Shown here piece after piece: positions 2,889 to 45,791 of a stretch of 64,000 nt of DNA. Under the pieces are notes generated by a model. That model was not told the DNA's origin, made no database searches, and was given only the letters and a program-made list of their open reading frames with translations. The translations under genes and the position numbers were made by a program. Every line of letters starts with the position of its first letter. Within the stretch, counting starts at the first letter, position 1. The DNA comes from Pseudomonadales bacterium (GTDB lineage Bacteria; Pseudomonadota; Gammaproteobacteria; Pseudomonadales; JAHRWD01): assembly GCA_029210125.1 (NCBI GenBank), contig JARGPR010000004.1:186001-250000 (forward strand), in the 5' to 3' direction.

Positions 2889-3686
2889 TTAACTTGCTAC
2901 CAATGTATCAAGGTTTTCATGTAAAAATTTGAGTGTTCGATTCAGTGCATTGAATGTGGGATGTCCCTGTTCATTAATCAGCTCTGTGGTTAGTACCGAA
3001 TGAGCGCTCTTGGATATGCCATGGCTATTACCCGTGGATGAATCGATCTCAATGGTTTCTAGGTTGTCACCCAGTTCCTGCCTTAGTCGATCAAACCGTT
3101 CCGGCGGGCTGGTTTTATCGTCGCTGAATCGTAACGCCAGTACTTTTTGATTCTGTTCCTTTACGCGTTTTTTAACACAGGCCAGGTCGGAATCGCTGAT
3201 ATGTAGGGCGGAACGTTTATTGGCGCTGACGGGGAATGGCAGCGAAGGTTGACTGAGTACAGGTGCCATTACCGATGGATCTACCATCAGCGAAAGCGCG
3301 AAGTTGCCGGTTAGGCACATTCCAATGGCTCCGACACCGGGGCCGCCGAGTTCTTTATGCGCACTTCGGCAAAGGGCACGCAGGTAGTGTGTAATGGGGC
3401 TTGATCTGCGACTTGCTAGCACTTTGAACTCTTTGCGGATACAGGCGCGTAGTAGTTCCTTGGCAATGTACCCCGGAGAATTGGGTTTGCCGGGGGTGCC
3501 AAACATATGTGGCATAAAAACGCTAAAACCACTGTCAGCGACGAGGGTGGCAAAGCGCGCTACCTCCGGTGTAATACCCGGAACCTCATGCATGATAATG
3601 ACACCGGGGCCGGCGCCCCGGCGGTAAATAGGGTAGCTCTCACCATTGTGGCTAAACTGGTCTAGCGAAAATCCTTCTAATGGCAT
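2889..3686 (-). CDS. Dienelactone hydrolase family protein
   Basis: This 265-residue protein has the fold markers of dienelactone hydrolases: GPGVIIMHEVPGIT (26-39) forms the oxyanion/first-strand region, GMCLTG puts the Cys nucleophile at C124 in the position that is Ser in most alpha/beta hydrolases, and GNSHGISKSAH near the end supplies candidate catalytic His residues. Family members hydrolyse lactones or esters, classically dienelactone in chloroaromatic breakdown, but most genomic copies have unknown substrates. No aromatic-degradation genes are adjacent. It is separated by 45 bp from modA and 63 bp from the DUF2235 gene, all on the minus strand; joint transcription is possible but unproven. 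Confidence 0.85.
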   Translation of the reverse strand: MPLEGFSLDQFSHNGESYPIYRRGAGPGVIIMHEVPGITPEVARFATLVADSGFSVFMPHMFGTPGKPNSPGYIAKELLRACIRKEFKVLASRRSSPITHYLRALCRSAHKELGGPGVGAIGMCLTGNFALSLMVDPSVMAPVLSQPSLPFPVSANKRSALHISDSDLACVKKRVKEQNQKVLALRFSDDKTSPPERFDRLRQELGDNLETIEIDSSTGNSHGISKSAHSVLTTELINEQGHPTFNALNRTLKFLHENLDTLVAS

Positions 3687-3731
3687 GGCTGATTCCCTAC
3701 CGGTTGTGAGTCACATCACGATGGCTATTGA

Positions 3732-4523
3732 TCACTTTTGTAATCCACTGTCGGAATGATCGCTGTAACCGAAGCGTTCGAGGATAGATCGGTTTGAACG
3801 AATAAATTCCAGTAGTGCTTGAGCAGCGAGGTTATTTTTACCCTGGGCTAAAAGTACCGCATCCTGCTTGATCGGGCTGTAGAGATTTTTCGGGATAACC
3901 CAACCAGAACCTCTGGCCAGCTCGCCATTTTCAGTCACCTGTGAGCCAGCAATCATCCCAACCTGGGCGTTACCGCTGCTGACAAACTGGTATGCTTGGG
4001 CAATATTTTGGCCCTGTATCAGTTTCGGTTTTATCTGTTCTGTGATGCCCAAATGATCGAACACCTCAATGGCCGCTCTGCCGTAGGGGGCTAATCGAGG
4101 GTTGGCAATGGCTAGTTTGTTGAAATCACCGCCGAGCAAAATATCGGCATTTTTTTTGATGAGTATTGGCTCAGGCGACCACAATATCAATGTGCCTATC
4201 GCATAGGTAAAACGGCTTTTCGGCACCGCCAAACCCTGCTGCTCAAGAGCTATTGGCTTGCTTTGATCTGCGGATAAAAAAACCTCAAAGGGCGCACCGT
4301 TACGGATTTGTGCATATAGTTTGCCGGACGAGCCAAAGGATATTTGGGCATGGTGACCGGTGATTTCGGTAAATTGCCGGGCAATGAGTTTCATCGGTTT
4401 GATAAAGTTGGCAGCCACCGCAACACTGACCGTATCCGCCGATGCAGGCAAAGAAAGCGCGCAAAAAACTCCGCAACAAAACCAACCCCACAGCATGCCG
4501 AAAAGCCTACTCTCAAATTTCAC
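3732..4523 (-). CDS. modA: Molybdate ABC transporter periplasmic binding protein ModA
   Basis: The 263-residue protein begins with a signal peptide (hydrophobic run ending ALSLPASA, cleavage near residue 29), then VSVAVAANFIKPM and ISFGSSGKLYAQI, the regions that bind the oxyanion in ModA/WtpA proteins, followed by FEVFLSADQSKP and later QAYQFVSSGNAQVGMI. It should capture molybdate or tungstate in the periplasm for a ModBC permease. No modB or modC lies beside it in this window, so the permease partners must be encoded elsewhere or this is an orphan binding protein. It is divergent from rep, with a 107-bp shared upstream region. Confidence 0.88.
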   Translation of the reverse strand: MKFESRLFGMLWGWFCCGVFCALSLPASADTVSVAVAANFIKPMKLIARQFTEITGHHAQISFGSSGKLYAQIRNGAPFEVFLSADQSKPIALEQQGLAVPKSRFTYAIGTLILWSPEPILIKKNADILLGGDFNKLAIANPRLAPYGRAAIEVFDHLGITEQIKPKLIQGQNIAQAYQFVSSGNAQVGMIAGSQVTENGELARGSGWVIPKNLYSPIKQDAVLLAQGKNNLAAQALLEFIRSNRSILERFGYSDHSDSGLQK

Positions 4524-4630: not shown

Positions 4631-6664
4631 TTGAGTTCAAGTTCTACCCCAACACCCAAATTCAGTTTAAACCCGGAGCAGCTTAAAGCGGTTCAGTATG
4701 TCGATGGCCCCTGCCTGGTGCTGGCCGGTGCCGGTTCCGGTAAAACCAGAGTGATTACCGAGAAAATCGCCTACCTTATTAAAGAATGCGATATCGCCGC
4801 TCACCACATTACTGCGGTGACTTTTACCAATAAGGCCGCGCGGGAGATGAAGGAGCGGGTTTCAAAACAGCTGGATAAAAAAGCCCGCCGGGGGCTGACA
4901 ATCTCTACTTTTCATACTCTGGGTTTGAAAATTATTCGCAGTGAGCAGCCTATGCTGGGGCTAAGCGATGGCTTCTCGATTTTTGATTCCCATGATAGCG
5001 GCCAATTGATCCGTGAGCTGATGTTGGCCTCGGTTGAGGAAGCGGAGGATGCGACGGATCGGGTTAAGTTTCATATCTCAAACTGGAAGAACAACCTGAT
5101 CTCCTGCGACCATGCGCTGTCCCACGCGGCAGACAAAGAGGAGCAGCTATCAGCGCGGGTATATGTTGAATATGAACGTAGCCTGCGGGCCTACAATGCG
5201 GTGGATTTTGATGATCTGATTATGCTGCCAGCCCGCCTGTTTGCCGCCGAACCGGCGGTACTTGCCAAATGGCAGTCGCGGATTCGGTATCTGCTGGTCG
5301 ATGAATATCAGGATACCAATCAGTCCCAGTATCAGATGGTTAAATACCTGGTGGGTCAACGCGCTGCCTTCACCGTGGTGGGGGATGATGACCAGTCCAT
5401 CTACTCCTGGCGGGGTGCGCAGCCAGAAAACCTGGCGCTATTGGCGGAGGATTTCCCAAGCCTTGAGCTGATTAAACTGGAGCAAAATTACCGTTCATCA
5501 TCGCTGATCTTAAAAGCGGCCAATGCGGTGATCGACAACAATCCCCACGTTTTTGATAAACGCCTGTGGAGCCAGCTTGAGCACGGTGAATCGATCCGCG
5601 CCTTACGCTGCGCCAGTGAAGATGCTGAAGCGGAACGAGTCGCCACGGATATCTTTAATCACCACCTGCAGCATAAACGGCCTTTCAGCGATTATGCGAT
5701 CTTGTATCGCGGTAATTTCCAATCGAGGCTGATTGAAACCAAACTCAAGACCCTGCAGGTTCCTTACAAGATCAGTGGCGGTAGCTCTTTTTTTGGGAAA
5801 ACCGAGATTCGTGACATCCTCTATTATCTGCGGGTGATTATTAACCCCGACGATGACAACGCCTTTCTACGGATTATCAACGTGCCGCGCCGTGAGATTG
5901 GCCCCCGTACTCTCGAAAAACTCAGCGCTTACGCCCAGCAGCGAGAAAAAAGCCTGCTGGCCGCTAGTGGCGAAATTGGTTTGCGGCACCATCTTCCTGA
6001 ACGAGTCATCGAAAAACTGGAGGTTTTTTCACGCTGGATGACCAAGCTTCAACAGCGTTGCGTGCAGGAAGACCCGATGAAGGCAATCCGCCAGATGATT
6101 GATGATATCCATTATGAAACCTGGTGTTATGAACAGAGCAGCAACCCCCGCGCCGCCGAAAAAAAGATGGAAAATATTGGCCAATTGCTGAATTCCATCA
6201 ATTCAATGCTGGAGAAAAATGAAGATTCTGACCTCAGCGACGTAATCCGAAAACTGGTATTGCTCGATATGCTCGATGAAAAACAGCAAGAGGATGACGA
6301 CGACCGGGTGCAGCTAATGACTCTGCATGCCAGCAAGGGGTTGGAGTTCCCCCATGTCTTTATAATGGGCATGGAGGAGGAACTGCTGCCCCACCGTACC
6401 AGCCTCGAAGAGGATTCGGTTGAGGAAGAGCGGCGGCTATTCTACGTGGGCATCACCCGCGCCCAGCGTGAGCTGACTCTGACCCTTAGCGCCCGCCGTC
6501 GCCAGTACGGTGAAGTCAGTGAATGTACCCCAAGCCGTTTTCTGGATGAGCTGCCGAGAAATGATGTGGAATGGGAGGGTTGGGATCAACAGCGGTCAGA
6601 GGAAGAAACCAAAGCTGTCGCCAGTGCGCATATCAGCAACTTGCGTGCAATTCTCGATAAGTGA
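4631..6664 (+). CDS. rep: ATP-dependent DNA helicase Rep
   Basis: Superfamily 1A 3'-5' helicase of 677 residues, the usual Rep length. Visible motifs: LNPEQLKAVQYVDGPCLVLAGAGSGKT at the N-terminus containing the Q motif and Walker A (GAGSGKT 33-39), TFTNKAAREMKER (Ia), DEYQDTN at 224-230 (Walker B), GDDDQSIYSWRGA (III), QNYRS (IV), TLHASKGLEFPHVF (V) and EEERRLFYVGITRA (VI). Rep helps replication forks pass protein blocks. It is shorter than UvrD and lacks UvrD's C-terminal tail. The start is a TTG: no ATG or GTG precedes the Q motif in frame, and the TTG allows the full N-terminus. It is divergent from modA. Confidence 0.93.
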   Translation: MSSSSTPTPKFSLNPEQLKAVQYVDGPCLVLAGAGSGKTRVITEKIAYLIKECDIAAHHITAVTFTNKAAREMKERVSKQLDKKARRGLTISTFHTLGLKIIRSEQPMLGLSDGFSIFDSHDSGQLIRELMLASVEEAEDATDRVKFHISNWKNNLISCDHALSHAADKEEQLSARVYVEYERSLRAYNAVDFDDLIMLPARLFAAEPAVLAKWQSRIRYLLVDEYQDTNQSQYQMVKYLVGQRAAFTVVGDDDQSIYSWRGAQPENLALLAEDFPSLELIKLEQNYRSSSLILKAANAVIDNNPHVFDKRLWSQLEHGESIRALRCASEDAEAERVATDIFNHHLQHKRPFSDYAILYRGNFQSRLIETKLKTLQVPYKISGGSSFFGKTEIRDILYYLRVIINPDDDNAFLRIINVPRREIGPRTLEKLSAYAQQREKSLLAASGEIGLRHHLPERVIEKLEVFSRWMTKLQQRCVQEDPMKAIRQMIDDIHYETWCYEQSSNPRAAEKKMENIGQLLNSINSMLEKNEDSDLSDVIRKLVLLDMLDEKQQEDDDDRVQLMTLHASKGLEFPHVFIMGMEEELLPHRTSLEEDSVEEERRLFYVGITRAQRELTLTLSARRRQYGEVSECTPSRFLDELPRNDVEWEGWDQQRSEEETKAVASAHISNLRAILDK

Positions 6665-6796
6665 TTCGAAACCCTGATTTGTAATGAGCCGTGATAGAAT
6701 CTGCGCTTTGAGAGCAGCCGGTCATCTGGCGAGTGTCTTGGCCTGTAGATAGAAACTAAAAGAAAGAAATCAGAACAAAATGAGACCCATATTCCA

Positions 6797-7369
6797 ATGT
6801 TGTTGATGATCGATAATTACGACTCCTTCACCTACAACGTGGTGCAATACCTTGCGGAGCTGGGGGCGGATGTAGAAGTACATCGCAATGACGAAATCAG
6901 CGTTGAGCAGATCAGGGCGTTAAACCCCGAGCGATTGGTGATATCCCCCGGCCCCTGTACCCCTAACGAAGCGGGCATTTCAATTGATGCGATTAACGAG
7001 TTTGCCGGTAAATTACCCATTCTTGGTATCTGCCTTGGGCATCAGGCCATTGGTCAGGCCTTTGGTGGGAAAATAGTGCGCGCCAAAAAAGTGATGCACG
7101 GAAAAACCTCGATGATTCACCACAATGATTTTGGTGTGTTCAAGGGGCTGCCAAACCCTTTTCAGGCTACTCGGTACCACTCGCTAGTGATCGAACAATC
7201 CAGTTTGCCGGATTGTCTCGAAGTCACCGCCTGGACCGAAACTGAATCCGGTGAACTTGATGAAATAATGGGTATACGACATCGGGAGCTGGATATTCAG
7301 GGGGTGCAATTTCACCCTGAATCGATACTGACCCACGAAGGCCACGCACTGCTTAGGAATTTTCTTTAG
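6797..7369 (+). CDS. trpG: Anthranilate synthase glutamine amidotransferase subunit (TrpG/PabA)
   Basis: Class I glutamine amidotransferase of 190 residues. It shows [16 protein letters not shown] at the start, the oxyanion region [12 protein letters not shown], the nucleophile motif [10 protein letters not shown] with Cys79, and GVQFHPESI with the catalytic His/Glu near the C-terminus. It supplies ammonia for anthranilate synthesis from chorismate, and the same protein often also serves p-aminobenzoate synthase. It is the first gene of trpG-trpD-trpC, 23 bp ahead of trpD. The large subunit trpE is not adjacent, as in Pseudomonas where trpE and trpGDC are also apart. The upstream 130 bp contain a possible extended -10 (TG-N-TAGAAT near 6692-6700) but no recognisable Trp leader peptide. 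Confidence 0.92.
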
Positions 7370-36827: not shown

Positions 36828-38663
36828 TTAACGGGGCACATGATAATAGTTTTCAATCTCTTCGCGGGTCAAAATGCCAACAATTGGTCGGATCATCGGG
36901 GCAGAAGTTCGGCACACCAGCAGGGTTTGAACCCCAGTTTCATCGAGTTTGTGTAGCGCTTCACTGAGTGATGCGCGCATATCAAGGGTTGCTGCATCCT
37001 TGCGTAAACCTGGAATAGCGAGCAGATCGATCTGATCTTGAGTATCCCTGGCTGCGCTAGTATTCATTTCGGTATCGAGGATATGCGCAGATTCGCCGGT
37101 TTCCGGTTTGGCAGTTTCTTCGAGATGGTGCGCCAGATCAGCTGCCCGCAGTACAATTCGATCCTGCTCGTTTTGTATGACGATCCACTGGGGCTGTTTT
37201 GCCAGTAGATGAACCGCATCATGCTCCGAGATATGTCGTTGGCACCTCTTGAAATTGGCACTCATGACACTGGTCACGCCGACCCGCTGTAGCAGCGTAA
37301 CCAGTTTGTCGCGCTGGTTTGAAAACTCTTTGCTGTCGATGGCGCTTTCGAAAATTGTTTTTTGTTTGAATAAAATTCTGCAGGTTAAAAATGCGATCAT
37401 CACCGTCATCATTGAAGGCAGCATCATGCCCGGCGCATTGGTTAATTCCAGTACCGTTATCAATGCTGACAATGGCGCTGACAATACCGCTCCCATCATT
37501 GCGGTCATACCGAGCAGGGTAAACAGGCCAATATCTGATGTGCTTTCGGGCCACAGCTGCTGACCTGCGAAACCGACAATTCCCCCTAATAGAGCACCAA
37601 TCAGAAGCGTTGGGCCAATCAGTCCTCCGGGCATTCCAAGGCCAATAACGGCGGCGGAGATCAGTAGCTTGCATATAAAAAACACGATCAGAGTGTTGAT
37701 GGCAATTTGGCCATTGAGGGTTTGCTCCATACTGTCGTATCCGATGCCCATGATTTCCGGTGAGATGATGGAAACCAGCGCAGTGAGTAGCCCTGCTAGC
37801 ATTACGCGCTTAAAAAAATGTACGTGCTGGTAGGTGGTGCAAAGCCGGTAAATATAGATAAATAGCGCAGCGGCGCAGCCAATCACAAACCCTTCAAAGG
37901 CGATGTAGGGCAACTCCCACAACGAGTGCATCGAAATTTCAGGAATCTGGAATGCTGGTGCCTGGCCATGGCTTATTTGGGCAATTACGGCCCCGGTCAC
38001 CGAGGCAATGATGATAGGTGCTAATCCAGCAAGGGTGTATTCCATCATCACCACCTCCATCGCAAAAATCACACCCGCGAGCGGAGTATTAAAGGAGGCG
38101 GCGATAGCTGCGGCGGTACCACAACCGACTAAGGTACGAAGGCTGTTGTTGGGCAGCTTCATCCACTGCCCGAGCAGGCTGCTACTGGTGGCACCCAAGT
38201 GTACGGCCGGACCCTCGCGGCCTACCGACTGACCGCTGATAATCGCAATCGCCGCCCCCACAAACTGCAGGATACCGTTTTGAAGAGGGAGATAACCTTG
38301 ATGATTGTGGAGTCGCTCAATAACGTAAGCAACCCCGGCCTTTCGTTTGTCATCACGAAAATAGGTAAATAAAAGCCCGATCAGCAGAGTACCGGTTAGA
38401 ATAAAAACGATACGTGTGAGTTGATCGAACCCTTCAAAATTTTCAGCAAGCCCGTCGGGCATCCACAGGGTCGGAGGCTGCTCAATGACCCATCGGAACA
38501 GCTCAATGACCGCACCGCTGATCAGGCCTGACAGAAGCCCAAGAATAACCAGCTGGGGTAACGCATCAATTTTGCCCAGCCCAAAGTGAAAATGTCGTAT
38601 CCGCCGGTTAAGGCGGAACCGAATTAAACGTAGCACTGTAAGTAGTTTGGAGGGCTTTGGCAC
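36828..38663 (-). CDS. CLC-family chloride channel/antiporter with C-terminal CBS domains
   Basis: A 611-residue CLC protein. About 10 or more membrane helices span 30-430; GQSVGREGPAVHLGA carries the gating Glu, and GLGMPGGLIGPTL is the late selectivity segment. The first anion-binding motif, GSGIP in E. coli ClcA, is not recognisable (KRKAGVAYVIERL occupies that region). After GVIFAME the position of the internal proton-glutamate of ClcA is Val. Both points fit the CBS-containing bacterial subgroup rather than classical ClcA, so channel or antiporter mode cannot be told. Two CBS motifs follow (about 465-520 and 545-610). It stands alone, 58 bp from hemJ. Confidence 0.88.
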   Translation of the reverse strand: MPKPSKLLTVLRLIRFRLNRRIRHFHFGLGKIDALPQLVILGLLSGLISGAVIELFRWVIEQPPTLWMPDGLAENFEGFDQLTRIVFILTGTLLIGLLFTYFRDDKRKAGVAYVIERLHNHQGYLPLQNGILQFVGAAIAIISGQSVGREGPAVHLGATSSSLLGQWMKLPNNSLRTLVGCGTAAAIAASFNTPLAGVIFAMEVVMMEYTLAGLAPIIIASVTGAVIAQISHGQAPAFQIPEISMHSLWELPYIAFEGFVIGCAAALFIYIYRLCTTYQHVHFFKRVMLAGLLTALVSIISPEIMGIGYDSMEQTLNGQIAINTLIVFFICKLLISAAVIGLGMPGGLIGPTLLIGALLGGIVGFAGQQLWPESTSDIGLFTLLGMTAMMGAVLSAPLSALITVLELTNAPGMMLPSMMTVMIAFLTCRILFKQKTIFESAIDSKEFSNQRDKLVTLLQRVGVTSVMSANFKRCQRHISEHDAVHLLAKQPQWIVIQNEQDRIVLRAADLAHHLEETAKPETGESAHILDTEMNTSAARDTQDQIDLLAIPGLRKDAATLDMRASLSEALHKLDETGVQTLLVCRTSAPMIRPIVGILTREEIENYYHVPR

Positions 38664-38846: not shown

Positions 38847-39458
38847 TCAATCGCCAGCCAGGAATTGCAGTGCCTCGATATGGGCTGGATACCTTTGTAG
38901 GACCTGTCGATAGGTTATTCGCGCTGCATCTTGATGGCCTTGCCAGCGCTGTGCACGTGCCAGGTAAACCAACACGGTGGCATCGCCGGGAAAACGTTGG
39001 TGGAGTTGTTGCGCATGCTGTAACAGGGCATGCCAGTTACGCTGCCCCTCTTCGGAAATCATCAGTCGAAGATGTGCATAGTAGTTCCAGGGCGCAACCG
39101 AAAGTATCTGTTGTCCATATTTTTCAGCCTCTTTCCAGCGCTGCTGCGCTAGCAAAGGCAGCATTAATCCAAGTGCCGCATCAAGAGATTGGGGATTGAG
39201 TGAAAGGGCTTTCTGGTACTGTTTGATCGATTGATTGTAAGAGCCGCCGAGATAGCTCAACCAACCCAAACGTAACATCGCGAATTCATCGTCTGGATTC
39301 TCTTTTCCGTAGGGATTCAGAATTTCCCGAGCCTGCTGATATTGTCCAATGGATTCCAGCCGGTAACTATCTGTCCAGATATCGGCAGATGCATAACTGC
39401 CGAAAATAAAAGGCGTGCTGACAATAAAAGCGATCCACCTATATTTTAAAAATTTCAT
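38847..39458 (-). CDS. Exported TPR protein, last gene of the PqqD/urea-transporter operon
   Basis: A 203-residue protein with a signal peptide (FIVSTPFIFGSYASA) and about four tetratricopeptide repeats, for example YLGGSYNQSIKQYQKALSLNPQSLDAALGL split at its helices, APWNYYAHLRLM and YLARAQRWQGHQDAARITYRQVLQRYPAHIEAL. TPR domains scaffold protein complexes; together with the barrel gene nine bases upstream it suggests a periplasmic assembly factor at the outer membrane. Both exported proteins carry the same SADIW(T/S) motif at the predicted mature N-terminus. Confidence 0.78.
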   Translation of the reverse strand: MKFLKYRWIAFIVSTPFIFGSYASADIWTDSYRLESIGQYQQAREILNPYGKENPDDEFAMLRLGWLSYLGGSYNQSIKQYQKALSLNPQSLDAALGLMLPLLAQQRWKEAEKYGQQILSVAPWNYYAHLRLMISEEGQRNWHALLQHAQQLHQRFPGDATVLVYLARAQRWQGHQDAARITYRQVLQRYPAHIEALQFLAGD

Positions 39459-39467
39459 AAAATGGTC

Positions 39468-40442
39468 CTACCACTGATGTGAAAAATTGATGTAGAAAGA
39501 GCTGCTGTTATAGCGATTATCCAGTGTCGGGTTTTTAAACTCCTGCCAGCTAAAGTGGGCCAGGATTTGAGTCTGGTCTCCTATTTGCCACTGCCCAAAA
39601 ACAGCGGCCATTTGGGTTTGAATATTGGCTAGGCTATAAACCTCTGCTGCGTCTGGATCAACGGCAAATAAACGCTCTCCGGATATCACCTGAAAGCCAA
39701 TATTATTCAGACCAAGTAATGAGTCGGGCTGCAGCCAGTGGGTCCATTTTAGCTCCAGCGCTTTGCTGTCTTGTAGGCCTGTTGTAACTGTATTGTTATC
39801 CAGTTCAATGAAATAGGCGCGCAGTTGAATCCAGTCAGATTGCTGCCCCAGTGCAAACCCAAAGGCCGGGCTAAGCTGATGGACTTTGGAATCCGCAAGT
39901 GCTCTGTCTGGGTATTCATATGAGGACAACGCGTAACCGAGTTCGTAGAAGCGGGTTTTGCTGAAATTTCTGAAGGAGATAATCGGATTGATGACCAATA
40001 GTTGATCCGTTAGCGTGGTTATAGGTCGTCTTATACCTGGAGTGCCTGCAACAAAAACAGAATGTTTTGATTGAGCTGAATATCCATCCAGTCGAATGGT
40101 CGTAACCCCGGGTAAGGTATCAAAAAAAAGTTTGTGGCTGCCGCTTAAATAAAATCGATGTTCTTTAATTGAATCGAGATCGTCAGGGTTGGCATTTAAA
40201 GCTTTAACCGTCGTGTATTGATAGCCAACGCTGAAATGGGTTCTGTCCAGCTTATCAAAGCTGAAGATAGATCCTGCGCTATAGGCAGAATCTCTAACCA
40301 TTGAGTCTGAGTACTGGTTAAAGTTATTTTGCAGTAAAATCTTCGGCGACCAGATATCGGCTTCAGCAAACATTGAAACCAATGGTAAAAAAAGCCAGAA
40401 GAACGATGGAAAGTGAAAGCTTAATTTTTGACAGCGAAACAA
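39468..40442 (-). CDS. Predicted outer-membrane beta-barrel protein
   Basis: A 324-residue protein with a signal peptide (FFWLFLPLVSMFAEA) and then alternating-pattern strands with many aromatic ends and short turns, ending NSSSFYINFSHQW; a terminal aromatic residue after such a strand is the outer-membrane barrel targeting signal. I do not recognise the family beyond this; it may relate to YaiO-like or surface-lipoprotein assembly barrels. It is 15 bp behind the urea-transporter/M23 gene and ahead of the TPR gene. Confidence 0.68.
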   Translation of the reverse strand: MFRCQKLSFHFPSFFWLFLPLVSMFAEADIWSPKILLQNNFNQYSDSMVRDSAYSAGSIFSFDKLDRTHFSVGYQYTTVKALNANPDDLDSIKEHRFYLSGSHKLFFDTLPGVTTIRLDGYSAQSKHSVFVAGTPGIRRPITTLTDQLLVINPIISFRNFSKTRFYELGYALSSYEYPDRALADSKVHQLSPAFGFALGQQSDWIQLRAYFIELDNNTVTTGLQDSKALELKWTHWLQPDSLLGLNNIGFQVISGERLFAVDPDAAEVYSLANIQTQMAAVFGQWQIGDQTQILAHFSWQEFKNPTLDNRYNSSSFYINFSHQW

Positions 40443-40457
40443 TTTTCAAATCTCTAA

Positions 40458-42680
40458 TTAATTTAAATGAGGGTTCGTATCGATATGCCAGCTGGGTATG
40501 CCCTCGTCGCTGGAGAGACCAGTTTCAATGAGCACGGCTTTACGGGTTTTTTCGTTATCGTGTAATGTTATTTCGCAGCAACCCAGAACCGGATCAATCA
40601 GCGACTCGATCTTCACCTCCCAACCAAGCTGCGGCAACTGCAGTTGATGAACACTTTGTTGCCGCCACTGTTTTTCACTGGCGCTCCAGTTTCTTGTGTA
40701 ATGACTGGTTAGGCCGCACCCCAGTGGTCTGAAACAATGTTGAAAAAAGCGTTGAATAAAATTTGCAGGAAATAGCTGAGCCGAGGGTGAATCCTGCCAT
40801 TGGTGGGCGGTTCTCGCGAGGGGGGTAAGCCCGTAGGCCAGCAGCCATAGATCCAGCAGCGGATCCTTCGGACCCTGCCGATCAAAAAAGGCCAATACGC
40901 CATTCGCTTCCACAAATGCGGCACTGGCCCCACGACCACTTACCCCACTGCCGCTTACCAAGCGGAACTGACCAGACAGGGTTAGCTCTACGGTAAGTGT
41001 GTGGCGTGTTTTGTTAGCACTATTCTGTTCCGAATATTCATAGGTCAGTTGTTGACCCACTGGCATATGCAGTGGTTTTTCGAGCTTGTCGTCAATAGTG
41101 GCAGCTTCTATACAGTCGCCAACCTCAGGAATATTGACCAGTAGGTACTCGCTGAGCCCGCCAGCTTTGTGTTTGACAATACTCTGCAGGTGAAACGGGT
41201 AGGTTCGGCTGCCAAGTGCTGAGGTTTCCTGGATCTGCATATGTAAATGAGGCTGTGGCGAGCGCCCTGAATTTCCACAGCGGGCAATTTTTTCACCGGG
41301 CTTGACCCGTGCGCCTTCACTGACACTGATGCTGCTATTTTGCAGGTGAGCCAGCAACAGGTGAAAACCATTATCCAGTCGAATTAGAATGAAATTACCC
41401 CAGTTGTTTTTTGTATCGACTTCACCAGGTGGGTTGTCCGCCAGGCTATTCTGAATTCGAATAACCTGACCGTGGGCGGGGGATACTACCGGTAAACCAA
41501 AACAGTAGAAATCCTTTAGCGTTGCGCCGTTATTTTGAAAACTTTGGTCGTCGACCTTAATATAAAAATCAAGGGCATGTCGCCATGGGCCCTTATGGGT
41601 ATGTGGACCGTCGAAGCCCTGGTAGATTTGCCACTTTCCCAAAAAAGGCGGCAGCAACGGGACACTGTGGATAGCGCCGTTGCGGACCCGCGCCAAACGC
41701 GCATTTTCGTAGTTGATCTCGGGTAAATTGGGTTGTGGTGCCAACCAGGGGGGGCGGATGCTGAACCGTGCTTTCATCGCGATCAAAAAAACCAACGTGG
41801 TGACAACAAAGGGCAGCGCCAGCACCGGCAAACCATATACGAATAACAGCTTCTGGGTAGCGATTAGAATTAATGCGCAGAAGGCTGCTGCCAACAGTGC
41901 CGTGATGAAACTTGCGACCCCAGGAATCATATAGATGCCACCGAGCGCAATCGCTACCAGAGCAAAGTTAAACCCCGTCCAGTTCAGTAGCAAAGGGTAG
42001 TTTTGTATATCCAAAAACAGCCACAGTGTGCAATATCCGGCCAGGTAGCCGGCCAGGGCTAACAGTGCCAGATACCGGGAACGTATCGCAATAACTAACA
42101 AAATGATGGCACCCGCCACGGCCTGGCTAGTGAAAAAAGTAGCACCTAGCGACATCAAAAACTGGTTGGCGGATGGCCCGATGATGGAGGAACCGGACTG
42201 GTATAACGCAGTGAAAGCGGGCGCATCCATTGGGATGAGTTGACTGTTTTGTTGTGCCGCCAACGCTACGACGGTGATGACGATCAGGAATGGCAGGCTG
42301 AGTACCGGTAATTGTCGATCTGTCTCCATCAGCGCAATCAGTGCAGCGCTTAGCACCACGGTTAAGGCTGAGGCGATCAGTATCAGAATGAGTAGATGGC
42401 TGCTAAGAAGATAAAGGGCACCTAGTGCCAGCCCCACCAGTAGGCTGTTGAGCAGATGTAACCCGGTTTCGATTTTCGGAAACTGAAGCAGCCTGGCGAT
42501 CATCAATGCAGTTAGCACTGAAATTAGGCCGCAGGTGCCGATATTAACTTCAAAAAAGGTTACCAGTGCGATAAAAAAACCAGCCCAGGCGTTATTCAGA
42601 AACAAAATGGAAGAGTAGGCCCGAAATAGCTGGGCAATCGCCGTGGTGATCTCGCTGGTGACGGTTTTATCCGTTGGCAT
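40458..42680 (-). CDS. Urea-transporter-like membrane domain fused to an M23 peptidase domain
   Basis: A 740-residue three-part protein. Residues 20-305 are a helix-rich membrane domain with FLNNAWAGFFIALVTFFE near 27-44 and a repeated second half, the pattern of the UT urea-transporter family. Residues 345-500 are a LytM/M23 domain: RHALDFY (367-373), PVVSPAHGQVIRI, WGNFILIRL, LLAHL with H445, the SVSEGARVKPGEKIARCGNSG block, and PHLHMQI with H478 and H480. The usual HxGxD first zinc motif is shifted: R367 stands where His is expected and H368 is one off, so metal binding is uncertain. The last 230 residues match nothing I recognise. UT proteins normally have both ends in the cytoplasm, which leaves the side of the peptidase domain unclear. 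Fourth gene of the operon, 5 bp after the decarboxylase. Confidence 0.8.
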   Translation of the reverse strand: MPTDKTVTSEITTAIAQLFRAYSSILFLNNAWAGFFIALVTFFEVNIGTCGLISVLTALMIARLLQFPKIETGLHLLNSLLVGLALGALYLLSSHLLILILIASALTVVLSAALIALMETDRQLPVLSLPFLIVITVVALAAQQNSQLIPMDAPAFTALYQSGSSIIGPSANQFLMSLGATFFTSQAVAGAIILLVIAIRSRYLALLALAGYLAGYCTLWLFLDIQNYPLLLNWTGFNFALVAIALGGIYMIPGVASFITALLAAAFCALILIATQKLLFVYGLPVLALPFVVTTLVFLIAMKARFSIRPPWLAPQPNLPEINYENARLARVRNGAIHSVPLLPPFLGKWQIYQGFDGPHTHKGPWRHALDFYIKVDDQSFQNNGATLKDFYCFGLPVVSPAHGQVIRIQNSLADNPPGEVDTKNNWGNFILIRLDNGFHLLLAHLQNSSISVSEGARVKPGEKIARCGNSGRSPQPHLHMQIQETSALGSRTYPFHLQSIVKHKAGGLSEYLLVNIPEVGDCIEAATIDDKLEKPLHMPVGQQLTYEYSEQNSANKTRHTLTVELTLSGQFRLVSGSGVSGRGASAAFVEANGVLAFFDRQGPKDPLLDLWLLAYGLTPLARTAHQWQDSPSAQLFPANFIQRFFQHCFRPLGCGLTSHYTRNWSASEKQWRQQSVHQLQLPQLGWEVKIESLIDPVLGCCEITLHDNEKTRKAVLIETGLSSDEGIPSWHIDTNPHLN

Positions 42681-42685
42681 TGGGA

Positions 42686-44125
42686 TTAGTCAGGCTGGCT
42701 CAGCGGGTTAAAAATATCCTCCGGTTCACCCTGTGGGTAGGGGTCCTGTAGATGTTCCGGTAGTCGCTCAAGGTCGGTGATAGTAGATAGCTCTTCGGCC
42801 TGACGAATTAACCAGGTTTTCTCGTGGGTATCGATCATCACTACGTTGGGGCGGTATTCGATAAACTGTAACCACTGGGTGTGGTTGTAGGCACCCACCG
42901 GGCTGAAAATCAGGGTATCACCGACATTGACTGGGGGTAGCATGATGCTATTGCGCATCAGGTCGATATTCATACATAAGGGGCCGTAGATAACCGTATC
43001 TTCTGGCCTGCCCTCCAGTTGGCGGGTTGGCGTGACTTTGTGGTTATACCAAAAGGCTGTAAACAGCAGATTGACTCCAGCGTCGACGATAATGGCTCGC
43101 CGACCATCCGGTAGCCGTTTGTTGGCGATCACGGAGCAGATCAGCGATTCCGCGTCATCAACCAGTGCACGTCCGGTTTCGAGAATGAGGATGGGTCGTT
43201 TCAGGCCCCGTGCTTCCCGTTCATGACCAAGCTCAAGTAGCGTGTCGCAGATTGCTTCGGCATATTGCTCAACACTGGGAACCACCTGTTCCACCGGTAG
43301 ATAGATCCCTTGCAGTGCATTGGCCGAGGCAAATCCCCCGCCAATATCGATGTATTCAATGACTGCGCCGGTCTGTGCTTCAATCTCAGTCAGGAACTGG
43401 TACATGGTGGTGACCTGGTTTTGATAGGCTCGTGGTTCCAGTACAAAGGTGCCGATATGGCTGTGCAAGCCGGTGAGTTGCAGATAATCGCTTGAGGCGA
43501 TGCGCCAAGCCACGTCTCTGGCCTGGCCGTTTTCGATATTAAAGCCAAAGCGGCTCCAGGGTTCGGTAAAGCCGGTATCAAAATTAAGGCGAATGCTGAC
43601 ATTAACCCTGCGTCGTAAACGGGTTGCTATTTCTTCCAGGGTGTAGAGTTCGTCAAGGTGGTCGATATGGATTCGGGCGCCTTCGATGATTGCCGTCTCG
43701 AGGATAGCAGGACGTTTAAAGGGGCCATTAAACAAAATACTGTGGCCCGGTACCCCCAGACTCCTGGCTTTCTGGTATTCAAATTCGGAAACCACTTCCG
43801 CCCAGGCACCCTCCTGGTGGAAACTATTGCAAACCGCGCCGAGATAATTGGTTTTATAGGACCAGGCGCAGATCACTTCGGGGTAGCGTGATTCAAAGGC
43901 ATGTTTAAGGCGTTGCAAATTTCGACGAAGCTTCTTTTCTGATACTACGAAAAGCGGCGAACCAAACTCTTCGACCAGCTGCTTTATTGGAACGCCATCG
44001 ATCGATTCGGTCCAGCTGAGGTTTTGGCTGCCGCCGGATTTATTCAACATACCGCTTCTCAGCGGTGTGATAACCGGTTTGATCCATCTTTTTTTAGATG
44101 AATTATCTGGGGTTTGATCGGGCAC
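42686..44125 (-). CDS. Fold-III PLP-dependent decarboxylase (LysA/ornithine decarboxylase-like)
   Basis: A 479-residue alanine-racemase-fold decarboxylase. CAWSYKTNYL gives the PLP lysine K91, LHSHIGTF gives the His pair at 221-223, IDIGGGFAS the phosphate loop, ETGRALV a substrate/PLP contact, and GPLCMNIDLM the catalytic Cys384 from the partner subunit, followed by GDTLIFSPVGAY. The family decarboxylates D-carbon amino acids such as meso-diaminopimelate, ornithine, arginine or carboxyspermidines; specificity cannot be read here. The start GTG shares one base with the preceding stop (TAGTG) and has GGAGAG upstream. A true lysA would usually be near dapF, which is absent; a specialised role in this operon is inferred. 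Confidence 0.87.
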   Translation of the reverse strand: MPDQTPDNSSKKRWIKPVITPLRSGMLNKSGGSQNLSWTESIDGVPIKQLVEEFGSPLFVVSEKKLRRNLQRLKHAFESRYPEVICAWSYKTNYLGAVCNSFHQEGAWAEVVSEFEYQKARSLGVPGHSILFNGPFKRPAILETAIIEGARIHIDHLDELYTLEEIATRLRRRVNVSIRLNFDTGFTEPWSRFGFNIENGQARDVAWRIASSDYLQLTGLHSHIGTFVLEPRAYQNQVTTMYQFLTEIEAQTGAVIEYIDIGGGFASANALQGIYLPVEQVVPSVEQYAEAICDTLLELGHEREARGLKRPILILETGRALVDDAESLICSVIANKRLPDGRRAIIVDAGVNLLFTAFWYNHKVTPTRQLEGRPEDTVIYGPLCMNIDLMRNSIMLPPVNVGDTLIFSPVGAYNHTQWLQFIEYRPNVVMIDTHEKTWLIRQAEELSTITDLERLPEHLQDPYPQGEPEDIFNPLSQPD

Positions 44126-45204
44126 TAGAGCTCTCCTTCATCTTGCTGACGGTGTTGGCCGCTATCGATGATCATGGCTTCAAATTTATCAAGTGGAACA
44201 ATATTTTCCATCGCGTGGCGAATGAACATGACACCGGGCTTGGGGGGCGGAAAATCCTCTGGGGTTTCTCCGCAAATTAGCTGTATCAGGGTAAGGGGTA
44301 GATTCCGTCCGACGCCTGCCGAGAGGTAGATCCAGGCTGGAAAGCGTGGATTGATCTCGATCAGTTGGTAGTGCCCATGGGGATCCCGCACCACCTCTAC
44401 CTCCAGTGGCCCGCGCCAGTTAATTGCGCGAATCAGTGCGGCGCTGGCATCGTGGAGCGCTTGATCAAAAATCGTCACGCCGGACCAGGCTTTACCTTTA
44501 TCGGTAAGCGCCATCTTTTTCATCATAACCGCACCGAGCATATTGCCGTGACCGTCGCCTAACGCGGTCAAATTGTATTCGGTCCCCGTCGCAAAACGTT
44601 GCACCAGAATCGGTAGGCCCCATTGTGCAGCGAGTTGATGAAAGGCGCTGCTGGCCTGCTCGGCGTTTTTAACGATCTTTGCGCCGTAAAAAAGCCCCTT
44701 AACGACTAACGGGTAAGTCCATCCTTTCTCCTCGCATTGGGAAAAAAATGCCGGATTGGATAATGTTTTTACCTCGGGGCACTCAATGCCCGCGTATTCG
44801 GCGAGCTCCATCAATCGATCTTTGCTGCGCAGCTGGAGCTGCTCCTGTGTGGGTAGAAAATGCCGGATACCCCATTCGTCGAGAAGCGGGGTCAGCCGCA
44901 CAATGCCCGGCAGCTCTGCATCAAGGCAGGGTATAAAAATATCTATTTTTTCGAGCTGATGGATGCGGCCAAACGCATCAAGAAAGGCTTCATCGCCACT
45001 CGATGGGTAGGGCAGCAAGTAGCTGGCATCACAGTATTCGTCGAGATAAAGGCCGGGGTCGAGTGCATCGTACCCAAGCCCAATAATACGGCCTTTGAAT
45101 TCCGGCGCTTCTTTCAGGCATCGCGCTATGGCTAGCCCTGGGCCAGGGTTATCCGCTCTGGCGTTCATGCCGGTAATGGCAACGGTTGCGGTGATAGTGG
45201 CCAT
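44125..45204 (-). CDS. ATP-grasp carboxylate-amine ligase (PylC/CarB-like)
   Basis: A 359-residue ATP-grasp protein: an N-terminal Rossmann-like part (VAITGMNARADNPGPGLAIARCL), DIFIPCLDAELPG, SKDRLMELAEYAGI, YPLVVKGLFYGAKIV (ATP lysine) and LIEINPRFPAWIYLSAGVG with the Mg-binding Glu/Asn. The closest families I recall are PylC and carbamoyl-phosphate-synthase-like ligases, which join an amine and an acyl-phosphate. The product here is unknown; the adjacent decarboxylase could act on the ligated product or supply the amine. The ATG follows directly on the stop of the PqqD-like gene (TGAATG) with no gap. Confidence 0.85.
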   Translation of the reverse strand: MATITATVAITGMNARADNPGPGLAIARCLKEAPEFKGRIIGLGYDALDPGLYLDEYCDASYLLPYPSSGDEAFLDAFGRIHQLEKIDIFIPCLDAELPGIVRLTPLLDEWGIRHFLPTQEQLQLRSKDRLMELAEYAGIECPEVKTLSNPAFFSQCEEKGWTYPLVVKGLFYGAKIVKNAEQASSAFHQLAAQWGLPILVQRFATGTEYNLTALGDGHGNMLGAVMMKKMALTDKGKAWSGVTIFDQALHDASAALIRAINWRGPLEVEVVRDPHGHYQLIEINPRFPAWIYLSAGVGRNLPLTLIQLICGETPEDFPPPKPGVMFIRHAMENIVPLDKFEAMIIDSGQHRQQDEGEL

Positions 45205-45489
45205 TCAGTTATCGAGTAAGCTGTTTATCATGCCTGAAAACTCCAGCAGGTCCCGTTCAAGTACCTGTGGCTCAACATTGTACTCCTGTCGTAGTGACTC
45301 GATGACATCCTCAAGGGTTTTGTTCTGTTGCAGAGCTCTTATCACCACCAAACCGGTTTCGTTTAAGGTGAAATGATCCCCGCTGGTCGGATCAAATACA
45401 AACCCCCGTTCACTCACCGCCAATCGCTCCAGTGTTTTGATGGGGGGTAGCTGTATAGCTGCCTGTAGGGTTGGTTCCGTTTCAATCAT
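45205..45489 (-). CDS. PqqD-like (RRE-fold) protein, first gene of the operon
   Basis: A 94-residue protein with the PqqD pattern RGFVFDPTSGDHFTLNETGLVVIRALQQN, here in pieces (FVFDPTSGDHFTLNETG, VIRALQ), then helical LEDVIESLRQEYNV and LERDLLEFSGMI. PqqD-like domains bind peptides or partner enzymes, in PQQ synthesis and in many RiPP pathways. The ATG at 45489 has AGGAG six bases upstream; the frame is open further but without a good start. No small precursor-like gene is evident next to it, so peptide binding is uncertain. It leads the six-gene unit ending at 38847. Confidence 0.82.
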   Translation of the reverse strand: MIETEPTLQAAIQLPPIKTLERLAVSERGFVFDPTSGDHFTLNETGLVVIRALQQNKTLEDVIESLRQEYNVEPQVLERDLLEFSGMINSLLDN

Positions 45490-45596
45490 CGTTGGCTCCT
45501 GGGGTTTTCTCTCAAAATGGCGTTCGGAAACACTTCTGCTCAGTATCAATAAAGAACCTGTTGCATGTCGTGATCTGGGGCAAAAGATCGGGAAGC

Positions 45597-45634
45597 CTGT
45601 GTCATAACACGCACATCGAGCTGTTATGACACAG
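45597..45634. promoter_or_regulatory. 13-bp perfect dyad upstream of the PqqD-like operon
   Basis: CTGTGTCATAACA (45597-45609) is repeated in inverted form (45622-45634) with a 12-base gap. It lies between two divergent genes, 108 bp from the PqqD-like start and 158 bp from argC, so it cannot be a gene terminator; an operator for a dimeric regulator or a leader hairpin fits better. Confidence 0.55.
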
Positions 45635-45695: not shown

Positions 45696-45791
45696 CAGAA
45701 TAAAATGCCTGTTGTTAGCAAAGCCCAATTGTTAGAATCCAACGACTAGAATAACGCGATTAACGATTGACTTCTGTATAGGGTAATTTTG

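Follow-up and report, generated by a model that had tools for sequence, protein, structure and literature searches.

The window analysed here, i.e. the whole 64,000-nt stretch from position 186,001 to 250,000 of contig JARGPR010000004.1 (assembly GCA_029210125.1, a Pseudomonadales bacterium; contig C16 of the 3.13-Mb genome in our numbering), contains a cassette of six co-directional open reading frames (ORFs), A to F, which lie on the minus strand and extend from position 45489 down to 38847 in the ORF list. They encode a PqqD-like protein, an ATP-grasp ligase, a pyridoxal phosphate (PLP) decarboxylase, a fusion of a urea transporter (UT) with an M23 peptidase, an outer-membrane barrel and a tetratricopeptide repeat (TPR) protein (Table 1). 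Genes A and B abut as TGAATG (0 bp), B and C overlap by 1 bp and the remaining gaps are 5, 15 and 9 bp, exactly as given in an original prediction made from the sequence of the window, which had described a unit on one strand with gaps of at most 15 bp. Gene C starts with GTG and gene E with TTG. The Pfam matches in Table 1 exceed their cut-offs.

Table 1. The six-gene cassette and an adjacent inverted repeat in the window
Feature	Coordinates	Strand	Basis or location
A: PqqD-family protein, like a recognition element of ribosomally synthesized and post-translationally modified peptides (RiPPs), 94 aa	45205..45489	-	Pfam PqqD 2e-12
B: ATP-grasp ligase, 359 aa, predicted amide-bond former	44125..45204	-	Pfam ATPgrasp_Ter 4e-9
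C: fold-III PLP decarboxylase, 479 aa, FigC-like pocket	42686..44125	-	Pfam Orn_Arg_deC_N + Orn_DAP_Arg_deC
D: UT/M23 fusion	40458..42680	-	Pfam UT 3e-49 + Peptidase_M23 1.5e-15
E: outer-membrane beta-barrel, 324 aa, channel-type	39468..40442	-	AlphaFold2 model
F: TPR protein, 203 aa, probably secreted	38847..39458	-	Pfam TPR_14 1e-16; signal-like N-terminus by eye
Perfect 13-bp inverted repeat, 12-bp spacer	45597..45634		argC/operon intergenic region, 108 bp upstream of A

Relatives of the fusion protein D are encoded at 121 places in the genome contigs scanned; the best 80 of these served as loci, L068 among them. The counts of gene order that follow come from these 80, as some genomes occur twice in a larger set of 95. 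Genes A-B-C-D occur on the same strand and in the same order in 53 of the 58 loci that have at least 3.3 kb of upstream sequence. Five loci deviate: in L067 the A and B ORFs overlap, probably an ORF-calling artefact, L085 has the fusion alone, L092 and L106 have C and D, and L105 carries a second type of cassette, described below. Downstream of D, 58 loci have at least 2.6 kb of sequence: E and F are both recognisable in 31, F only in 13 and E only in four, with neither in the other 10. Some of the F-only loci have a longer TPR-barrel protein where E would be. Among 56 related genomes the fusion is present in four (G000, G016, G031 and G032); the other matches cover the M23 part only or, once (G020), the UT part only. 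G016 has all six genes in the same order and G031 has all six divided over two contigs, and the ATP-grasp and PLP proteins of these two genomes are 70–72% identical to those of the window.

The fusion is patchily distributed: the class has it in 16 of 369 genomes, the phylum in 36 of 398 and one family in 20 of 74. A tree of 85 fusion proteins contains 16 phylum-level labels, carried by 75 of its rows; the label changes 19 times, the minimum being 15. The rows nearest to the fusion of the window are gammaproteobacterial. The family of 74 genomes is that of Ghiorsea and Mariprofundus, as judged by two fusion proteins 93% and 82% identical to those of loci L057 and L047. In this family B is present in 20 genomes and D in 20: 19 have both, one has B alone, one has D alone and 53 have neither (Fisher p 2e-15, not corrected for kinship). 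Both single occurrences are at contig ends: in G647 genes A-B-C lie on a contig of 3,343 bases, and in G622 the end of D followed by E-F starts a contig of 4,273 bases. Identity matrices of B-C, B-D and C-D correlate at 0.81–0.82, again with kinship uncorrected. The original prediction had proposed co-occurrence across genomes as a check, and for two of the six families, B and D, co-occurrence held in the 74 genomes. The six-gene grouping is real and widespread, and in this family B and D are gained and lost together; the proposal that the genes form one unit is borne out by the conserved order in relatives and by this joint gain and loss.

Carriage of the cassette on plasmids was rejected: a search of PLSDB (E 1e-20) returned one record, in which a stand-alone Thermus M23 gene matched 27% of the query. 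In Aquificota three fusion genes were seen with no A-C nearby (L085, 9998–12094; L089, 1482–3599; L102, 737–2887), the last two having <1.5 kb of upstream sequence; in the fusion tree L089, L102 and L092 form one clade, separate from other Aquificota.

Diaminopimelate decarboxylase (LysA) is characterized by the motif C-E-S/T-G-D. The solved structure nearest to C is 7kh2, that of the N-citrylornithine decarboxylase FigC (1e-53), followed by the diaminopimelate decarboxylase 1twi (2.5e-37). A study of FigC (PMC7857480) describes the pocket residues, and docking in that study predicts that citrate is bound by H357 and R387. For mapping the pocket onto C we used an offset of 19, derived manually from the alignment. 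In all 63 sequences K91 (the PLP lysine), R319, Y360, T356, M385 and Y413 of C are the same as K63, R290, Y331, T327, M355 and Y383 of FigC. The citrate-binding H357 and R387 are replaced by I387 and Q417, likewise in 63 of 63, and T330 of FigC corresponds to W359. As the pocket is kept but its two citrate-binding residues are not, the substrate of C is most likely a diamino acid N-acylated with a group other than citrate. Free ornithine, lysine, arginine and diaminopimelate had been listed as substrates to assay; the pocket points instead to N-acylated diamino acids. A role as a free diaminopimelate decarboxylase was rejected on three counts: C scores 212 bits in the NCBIfam LysA model TIGR01048 (cut-off 298), it has C-M-N-I-D at the position of the LysA motif (63 of 63) and a separate true LysA, with CETGD and 522 bits in the same model, is encoded in the genome. 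The window's own genome also encodes, on contig C8 (L002, 1360–2601), an exosortase-A-type PLP decarboxylase (620 bits) beside a gene that by eye resembles acyl-CoA ligases.

In B, residues K128, K169, E268, E270, E283 and N285 are invariant over 35 rows; phmmer found no PDB relatives at 0.01. B is a probable amide-bond-forming ligase. A scores 47.7 bits in Pfam PqqD (cut-off 23.4; the Pfam and NCBIfam searches used a product one codon too long, 45205–45492) and has the conserved core LAxSExGFVFDPxTGxSFTVNxTG. Eight of the 54 ORFs homologous to A in the 80 loci carry, as judged by eye, a TetR-like N-terminal extension of ∼170 residues (L047, 1857–2648; L044, L045, L049, L054, L057, L058 and L061); in L047, where it was checked, TetR_N exceeds the Pfam cut-off. 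This unusual TetR-PqqD fusion might enable the pathway to respond to the compound that it consumes or makes.

A search for a conserved precursor gene near 45.5–45.8 kb had been proposed. We clustered 2,779 small ORFs lying no more than 1.5 kb from the core, taken from 95 of 96 loci (L068 was skipped). No precursor-like group was present among the 25 largest, which were shadows of genes, near-copies and other non-precursor matches; short divergent precursors would escape this search. No such gene was found at the place named in the window either. A ribosomal precursor, if any, is therefore divergent or encoded elsewhere. According to the original prediction, the first three genes could make or modify an amine-containing small molecule or peptide; a dedicated decarboxylase does lie with a probable amide-forming ligase.

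The AlphaFold2 model of D has a predicted local distance difference test score (pLDDT) of 92.6 and a predicted template modelling score (pTM) of 0.90. Residues 5–332 form a whole UT fold (Z 36.8–38.1, rmsd 2.0–3.0 over 303–314 residues), residues ∼340–500 an M23 peptidase fold (best Z 14.4 over 123 residues in the structure comparison, found also by Foldseek) and residues ∼505–740 a beta-rich C-terminal domain; the VIA-align rows cover residues 5–501. The UT part scores 168 bits in Pfam (cut-off 25) and 107 of the 275 bits required by the NCBIfam Yut model. Alignment columns were counted on 79 rows, or on 70 rows of 660–760 aa plus the window. Q24 and E187 are urea-contacting residues of the transporter dvUT. 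In the alignment with dvUT, at the first position (24 in D) the 70 rows have E in 23, A in 16, S in 12, G in six, Q in five and T in four; at the second (180 in D) A in 33 and S in 21. F27 is kept in 62 of 70. The loss of filter residues weakens the case for D as a simple urea channel.

The classic zinc motif of M23 peptidases is HxxxD. The H-to-D spacing in D departs from it, and the site was suspected to be degenerate; this was rejected, as H362, D371, H445, H478 and H480 are invariant in 79 of 79 rows, H362 with a presumed role. The M23 site is intact and the domain a putative peptidase. A positive net charge occurs in 52 of 70 rows at the N-terminus, in 42 at 121–128 and in 53 directly after the channel, and in just 4, 3 and 3 rows for the inter-half loop, 224–236 and 281–288; loops 66–73 and 90–93 of the first half average out as neutral (positive in 26 and 24 of 70). 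This charge bias gives the usual orientation of urea transporters, and the M23 domain is therefore rather likely to face the cytoplasm. The last three proteins had been thought to span the inner membrane, the periplasm and the outer membrane, which agrees with E, F and the channel of D; the peptidase of D is placed by the charge pattern in the cytoplasm.

E has no Pfam or NCBIfam match at E 1. Its AlphaFold2 model (pLDDT 91.5) is a barrel with 15 strand segments, which we take as 14 strands by counting 185–190 and 193–198 as one broken strand. Among the matches listed the nearest structures are CymA (Z 22, 267 residues, 9% identity), then FadL and OmpG, and E is predicted to be a channel-type outer-membrane barrel. 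The N-termini of both E and F look by eye like signal sequences. A polymer-export porin of the PgaA/BcsC type was also considered for E and has no family support: in NCBIfam, F resembles the TPRs of PgaA and BcsC with scores well short of the cut-offs and E matches neither; polysaccharide porins are absent from the 50 structure rows listed, which excludes nothing.

A rarer, second type of cassette combines the fusion and TPR genes with a fold-I ornithine/lysine/arginine (OKR) decarboxylase, unrelated to C, and a different ATP-grasp ligase (L036 of G032, L105 and the cut locus L140 of G286). No gene was picked by the PqqD, B or C models in L036 or L105, and a C45 acyltransferase/hydrolase gene was seen in both; L140 provides no sequence upstream of D. 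As the L105 ligase groups with B by BLAST, the type-2 ligase and B are probably distant kin. In NCBIfam PRK06524 (‘biotin carboxylase’) the type-2 ligase of L036 (4600–6150) reaches 518 bits against a cut-off of 684, and the label is probably wrong for this protein. The type-2 decarboxylase is nearest to Rv2531c, the activity of which is given as unknown in PMC12910592. Type-2 fusions together with that of L138 form one clade (support 98 in a quick tree), so the swap of the synthesis module may have happened once. Rhizoferrin, according to PMC7857480, is made in either order, decarboxylation first or ligation first. Both cassette types predict an N-acyl-diamine (amide) product.

Proteins encoded in the flanks were surveyed with 223 of 253 ORFs (119 of 132 plus 104 of 121) picked from 360; near-copies, core-type ORFs and likely spurious ORFs were left out. 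The commonest families are response regulators, with 18 proteins, and histidine kinases, of which 15 have HATPase_c. CzcA/CusA-type pumps exceed the cut-off in four of 50 loci (L053, L058, L061 and L077) against 0.47 expected (Poisson p 0.0014), an association noticed before it was tested, with L077 and L080 being kin. The expectation was derived from at least 99 matches counted by hand in ∼190.4 Mb (rounded sizes, also summed by hand), with up to 12 candidates scored in some genomes, and from 912,230 bases of loci. We consider the relation to metals a lead; the product is perhaps metal-related. In L138 (784–10562) one strand encodes a resistance-nodulation-division (RND) pump (ACR_tran, CusA-like by eye), a DsbA-like protein, a metal P-type ATPase (YHS + HMBD), a YHS protein and then the fusion, the match to which runs past two stops; the contig stops shortly beyond. 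In Bacteroidota DUF2202 proteins are encoded beside the cassette (L108, 15960–16670; L115, 6116–6763; L117, 5249–5890, loci assigned by protein clustering); the family matches 3 of 104 flank proteins. In L034 (G016; 5149–6861 and 2954–4075) a multihaem cytochrome-like protein (Pfam Cytochrome_C7) is encoded directly downstream, by a gene occurring also in L038, and a transposase-like gene was seen by eye farther off.

The close neighbours in the window are not of the metal-pump kind. A divergent semialdehyde-dehydrogenase gene (argC) lies upstream at 45789 and a ClC-type channel gene, ending at 38663, downstream; neither adjoins the cassette in L034 or L036. The inverted repeat between argC and A is a possible operator and, searched as an exact form with 10-bp arms and a spacer of 8–16 bp, occurs once in the genome. 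A conserved operator was rejected: the 13-bp repeat does not appear in the lists of inverted repeats for the region upstream of A of L034 (5 of 14 shown), L040 and L041.

We propose, with a probability of about 45%, that the cassette makes an N-acyl diamine or similar amide, perhaps metal-related, which passes out through D and E. The gene set with its order and co-occurrence, the predicted folds, the invariant catalytic residues and the lost citrate- and urea-binding residues come directly from the data, whereas we infer the order of reactions, the class of product, the direction of transport, the side and role of the M23 domain and the relation to metals. B would couple a carboxylic acid with the amino group on the side chain of a diamino acid, e.g. 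ornithine or lysine, and C would decarboxylate the N-acyl amino acid to the N-acyl diamine; A may carry the substrate or supply B and C with a peptide or protein partner. The small product would cross the inner membrane by D and the outer membrane by E, the M23 domain trimming or freeing it on the cytoplasmic face ahead of channel entry, and F would serve as a periplasmic TPR scaffold for E. In type-2 cassettes the order would be the other one: the basic-amino-acid decarboxylase would make a diamine, which the different ATP-grasp ligase would then acylate.

Several observations weigh against this proposal. A PqqD protein together with an intact peptidase would fit a peptide substrate, but no precursor gene was found among the 25 largest groups of small ORFs. 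C scores about the same in the LysA and FslC models (212 and 214 bits), below both cut-offs, as do all four C proteins tried, with LysA slightly ahead in L077 and L062. No PqqD gene was seen in the type-2 loci L036 and L105, and E and F are both absent beside D in the 10 of 58 loci mentioned above. The charge bias is the sole indication of the side of the M23 domain, and loop 66–73 is neutral in this respect. The pore of urea transporters is narrow and passive. The metal link is post hoc and concerns four of 50 loci. A bolder form of the proposal, which we regard as improbable, makes D a new class of peptidase-coupled channel, in which a cytoplasmic M23 domain would free a small amide from a PqqD-held peptide or protein for release through the 14-strand barrel E, with D, E and F served by two interchangeable synthesis modules that have unrelated decarboxylases.

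Alternatively, the cassette could be a peptide pathway: A would bind a ribosomal peptide encoded elsewhere, B would add a diamino acid, C would decarboxylate it, the M23 domain would cut the modified end and D and E would export the product, in the manner of exporters that contain a peptidase. The PqqD score of A, above the Pfam cut-off, is consistent with this scheme, as is the M23 site, intact in 79 of 79 rows and predicted to be cytoplasmic; decarboxylases of the alanine racemase (AR) fold such as MccE act on peptide-nucleotide conjugates, according to PMC8503589. However, no precursor-like group was present among the 25 largest small-ORF groups of the 95 loci, Pfam detected no other RiPP enzyme among the six genes and type-2 loci L036 and L105 have no PqqD gene. 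The UT pore is also too narrow for peptides, and we consider this pathway unlikely.

Still less probable is remodelling of the envelope, where a periplasmic M23 domain would cut peptidoglycan, B and C would make a diamine or edit the diaminopimelate of the stem peptide and E and F would be anchored to the modified wall. Many wall-related enzymes do have folds of these kinds (M23, ATP-grasp, LysA-like), no family is commoner in the flanks than response regulators (18 of 223) and Selenomonas has diamine-modified peptidoglycan; however, the charge bias places the M23 domain in the cytoplasm, cell-wall families are absent from the 25 most frequent families listed for either half of the flank proteins and an OKR decarboxylase could hardly replace an editor of stem peptides. 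Uptake and breakdown, with E and D admitting an amide or urea-like compound, the M23 domain hydrolysing it and B and C processing the fragments, is comparably improbable: UT proteins are passive channels and E resembles the uptake channels CymA and FadL, but an ATP-consuming ligase next to a decarboxylase follows biosynthetic logic, the urea-filter residues are lost in D and Pfam finds no urease among the six genes.

Synthesis and export of an amide finds partial parallels in known systems. The fsl/fig operon for rhizoferrin (FigA ligase, the major facilitator superfamily (MFS) protein FigB, and FigC) likewise combines an amide-forming ligase, an AR-fold decarboxylase acting on an N-acyl diamino acid and membrane passage; its outer-membrane barrel is FslE. 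Six FigC positions (pocket and PLP lysine) are common to C. The operon differs in having a non-ribosomal-peptide-synthetase-independent siderophore (NIS) synthetase and an MFS protein, where the cassette has an ATP-grasp ligase and UT-M23, with PqqD and TPR proteins added; the NIS synthetase family of Pfam (IucA/IucC) was not found in the six cassette proteins. In butirosin synthesis BtrJ and BtrK, an ATP-grasp enzyme and an AR-fold decarboxylase, work on an amino acid bound to an acyl carrier protein. BtrK is among the structure-database matches to C and the pairing of enzymes is alike, but Pfam detects no acyl carrier protein in the six genes. Compared with urea transporters (dvUT, SLC14), D has the complete fold and differs by the lost Q24 and E187 positions and by the fusion to M23. 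Peptidase-containing ATP-binding cassette (ABC) transporters, or PCATs, carry a C39 peptidase; in both these and D a peptidase is fused to a membrane passage, with M23 instead of C39, a channel fold and no ABC ATPase domain in D.

A further parallel is the fungal pathway for E-64, which is not known to include envelope genes. It employs an ATP-grasp enzyme, an amide synthetase and a PLP decarboxylase, as described in PMC12568646. There too ATP-grasp amide formation goes with a decarboxylase-derived diamine. Searches of full-text literature aimed at this gene set, where subscription journals are thinly covered, yielded no published system joining these genes among the matches listed, in agreement with the original prediction, which knew of no described system of this composition.

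The cassette constitutes a sizeable gap in annotation: it is present in many phyla, its central proteins score below every NCBIfam cut-off and its genes are likely named singly after their parent families. Frequent two-component neighbours, together with the RND metal-efflux genes next to some copies, provide a lead to physiology, and the existence of two exchangeable synthesis modules makes the product class directly testable. If the proposal is true, the cassette would represent a NIS-independent route to N-acyl diamines, with an unusual location of an M23 peptidase and an unusual exporter.

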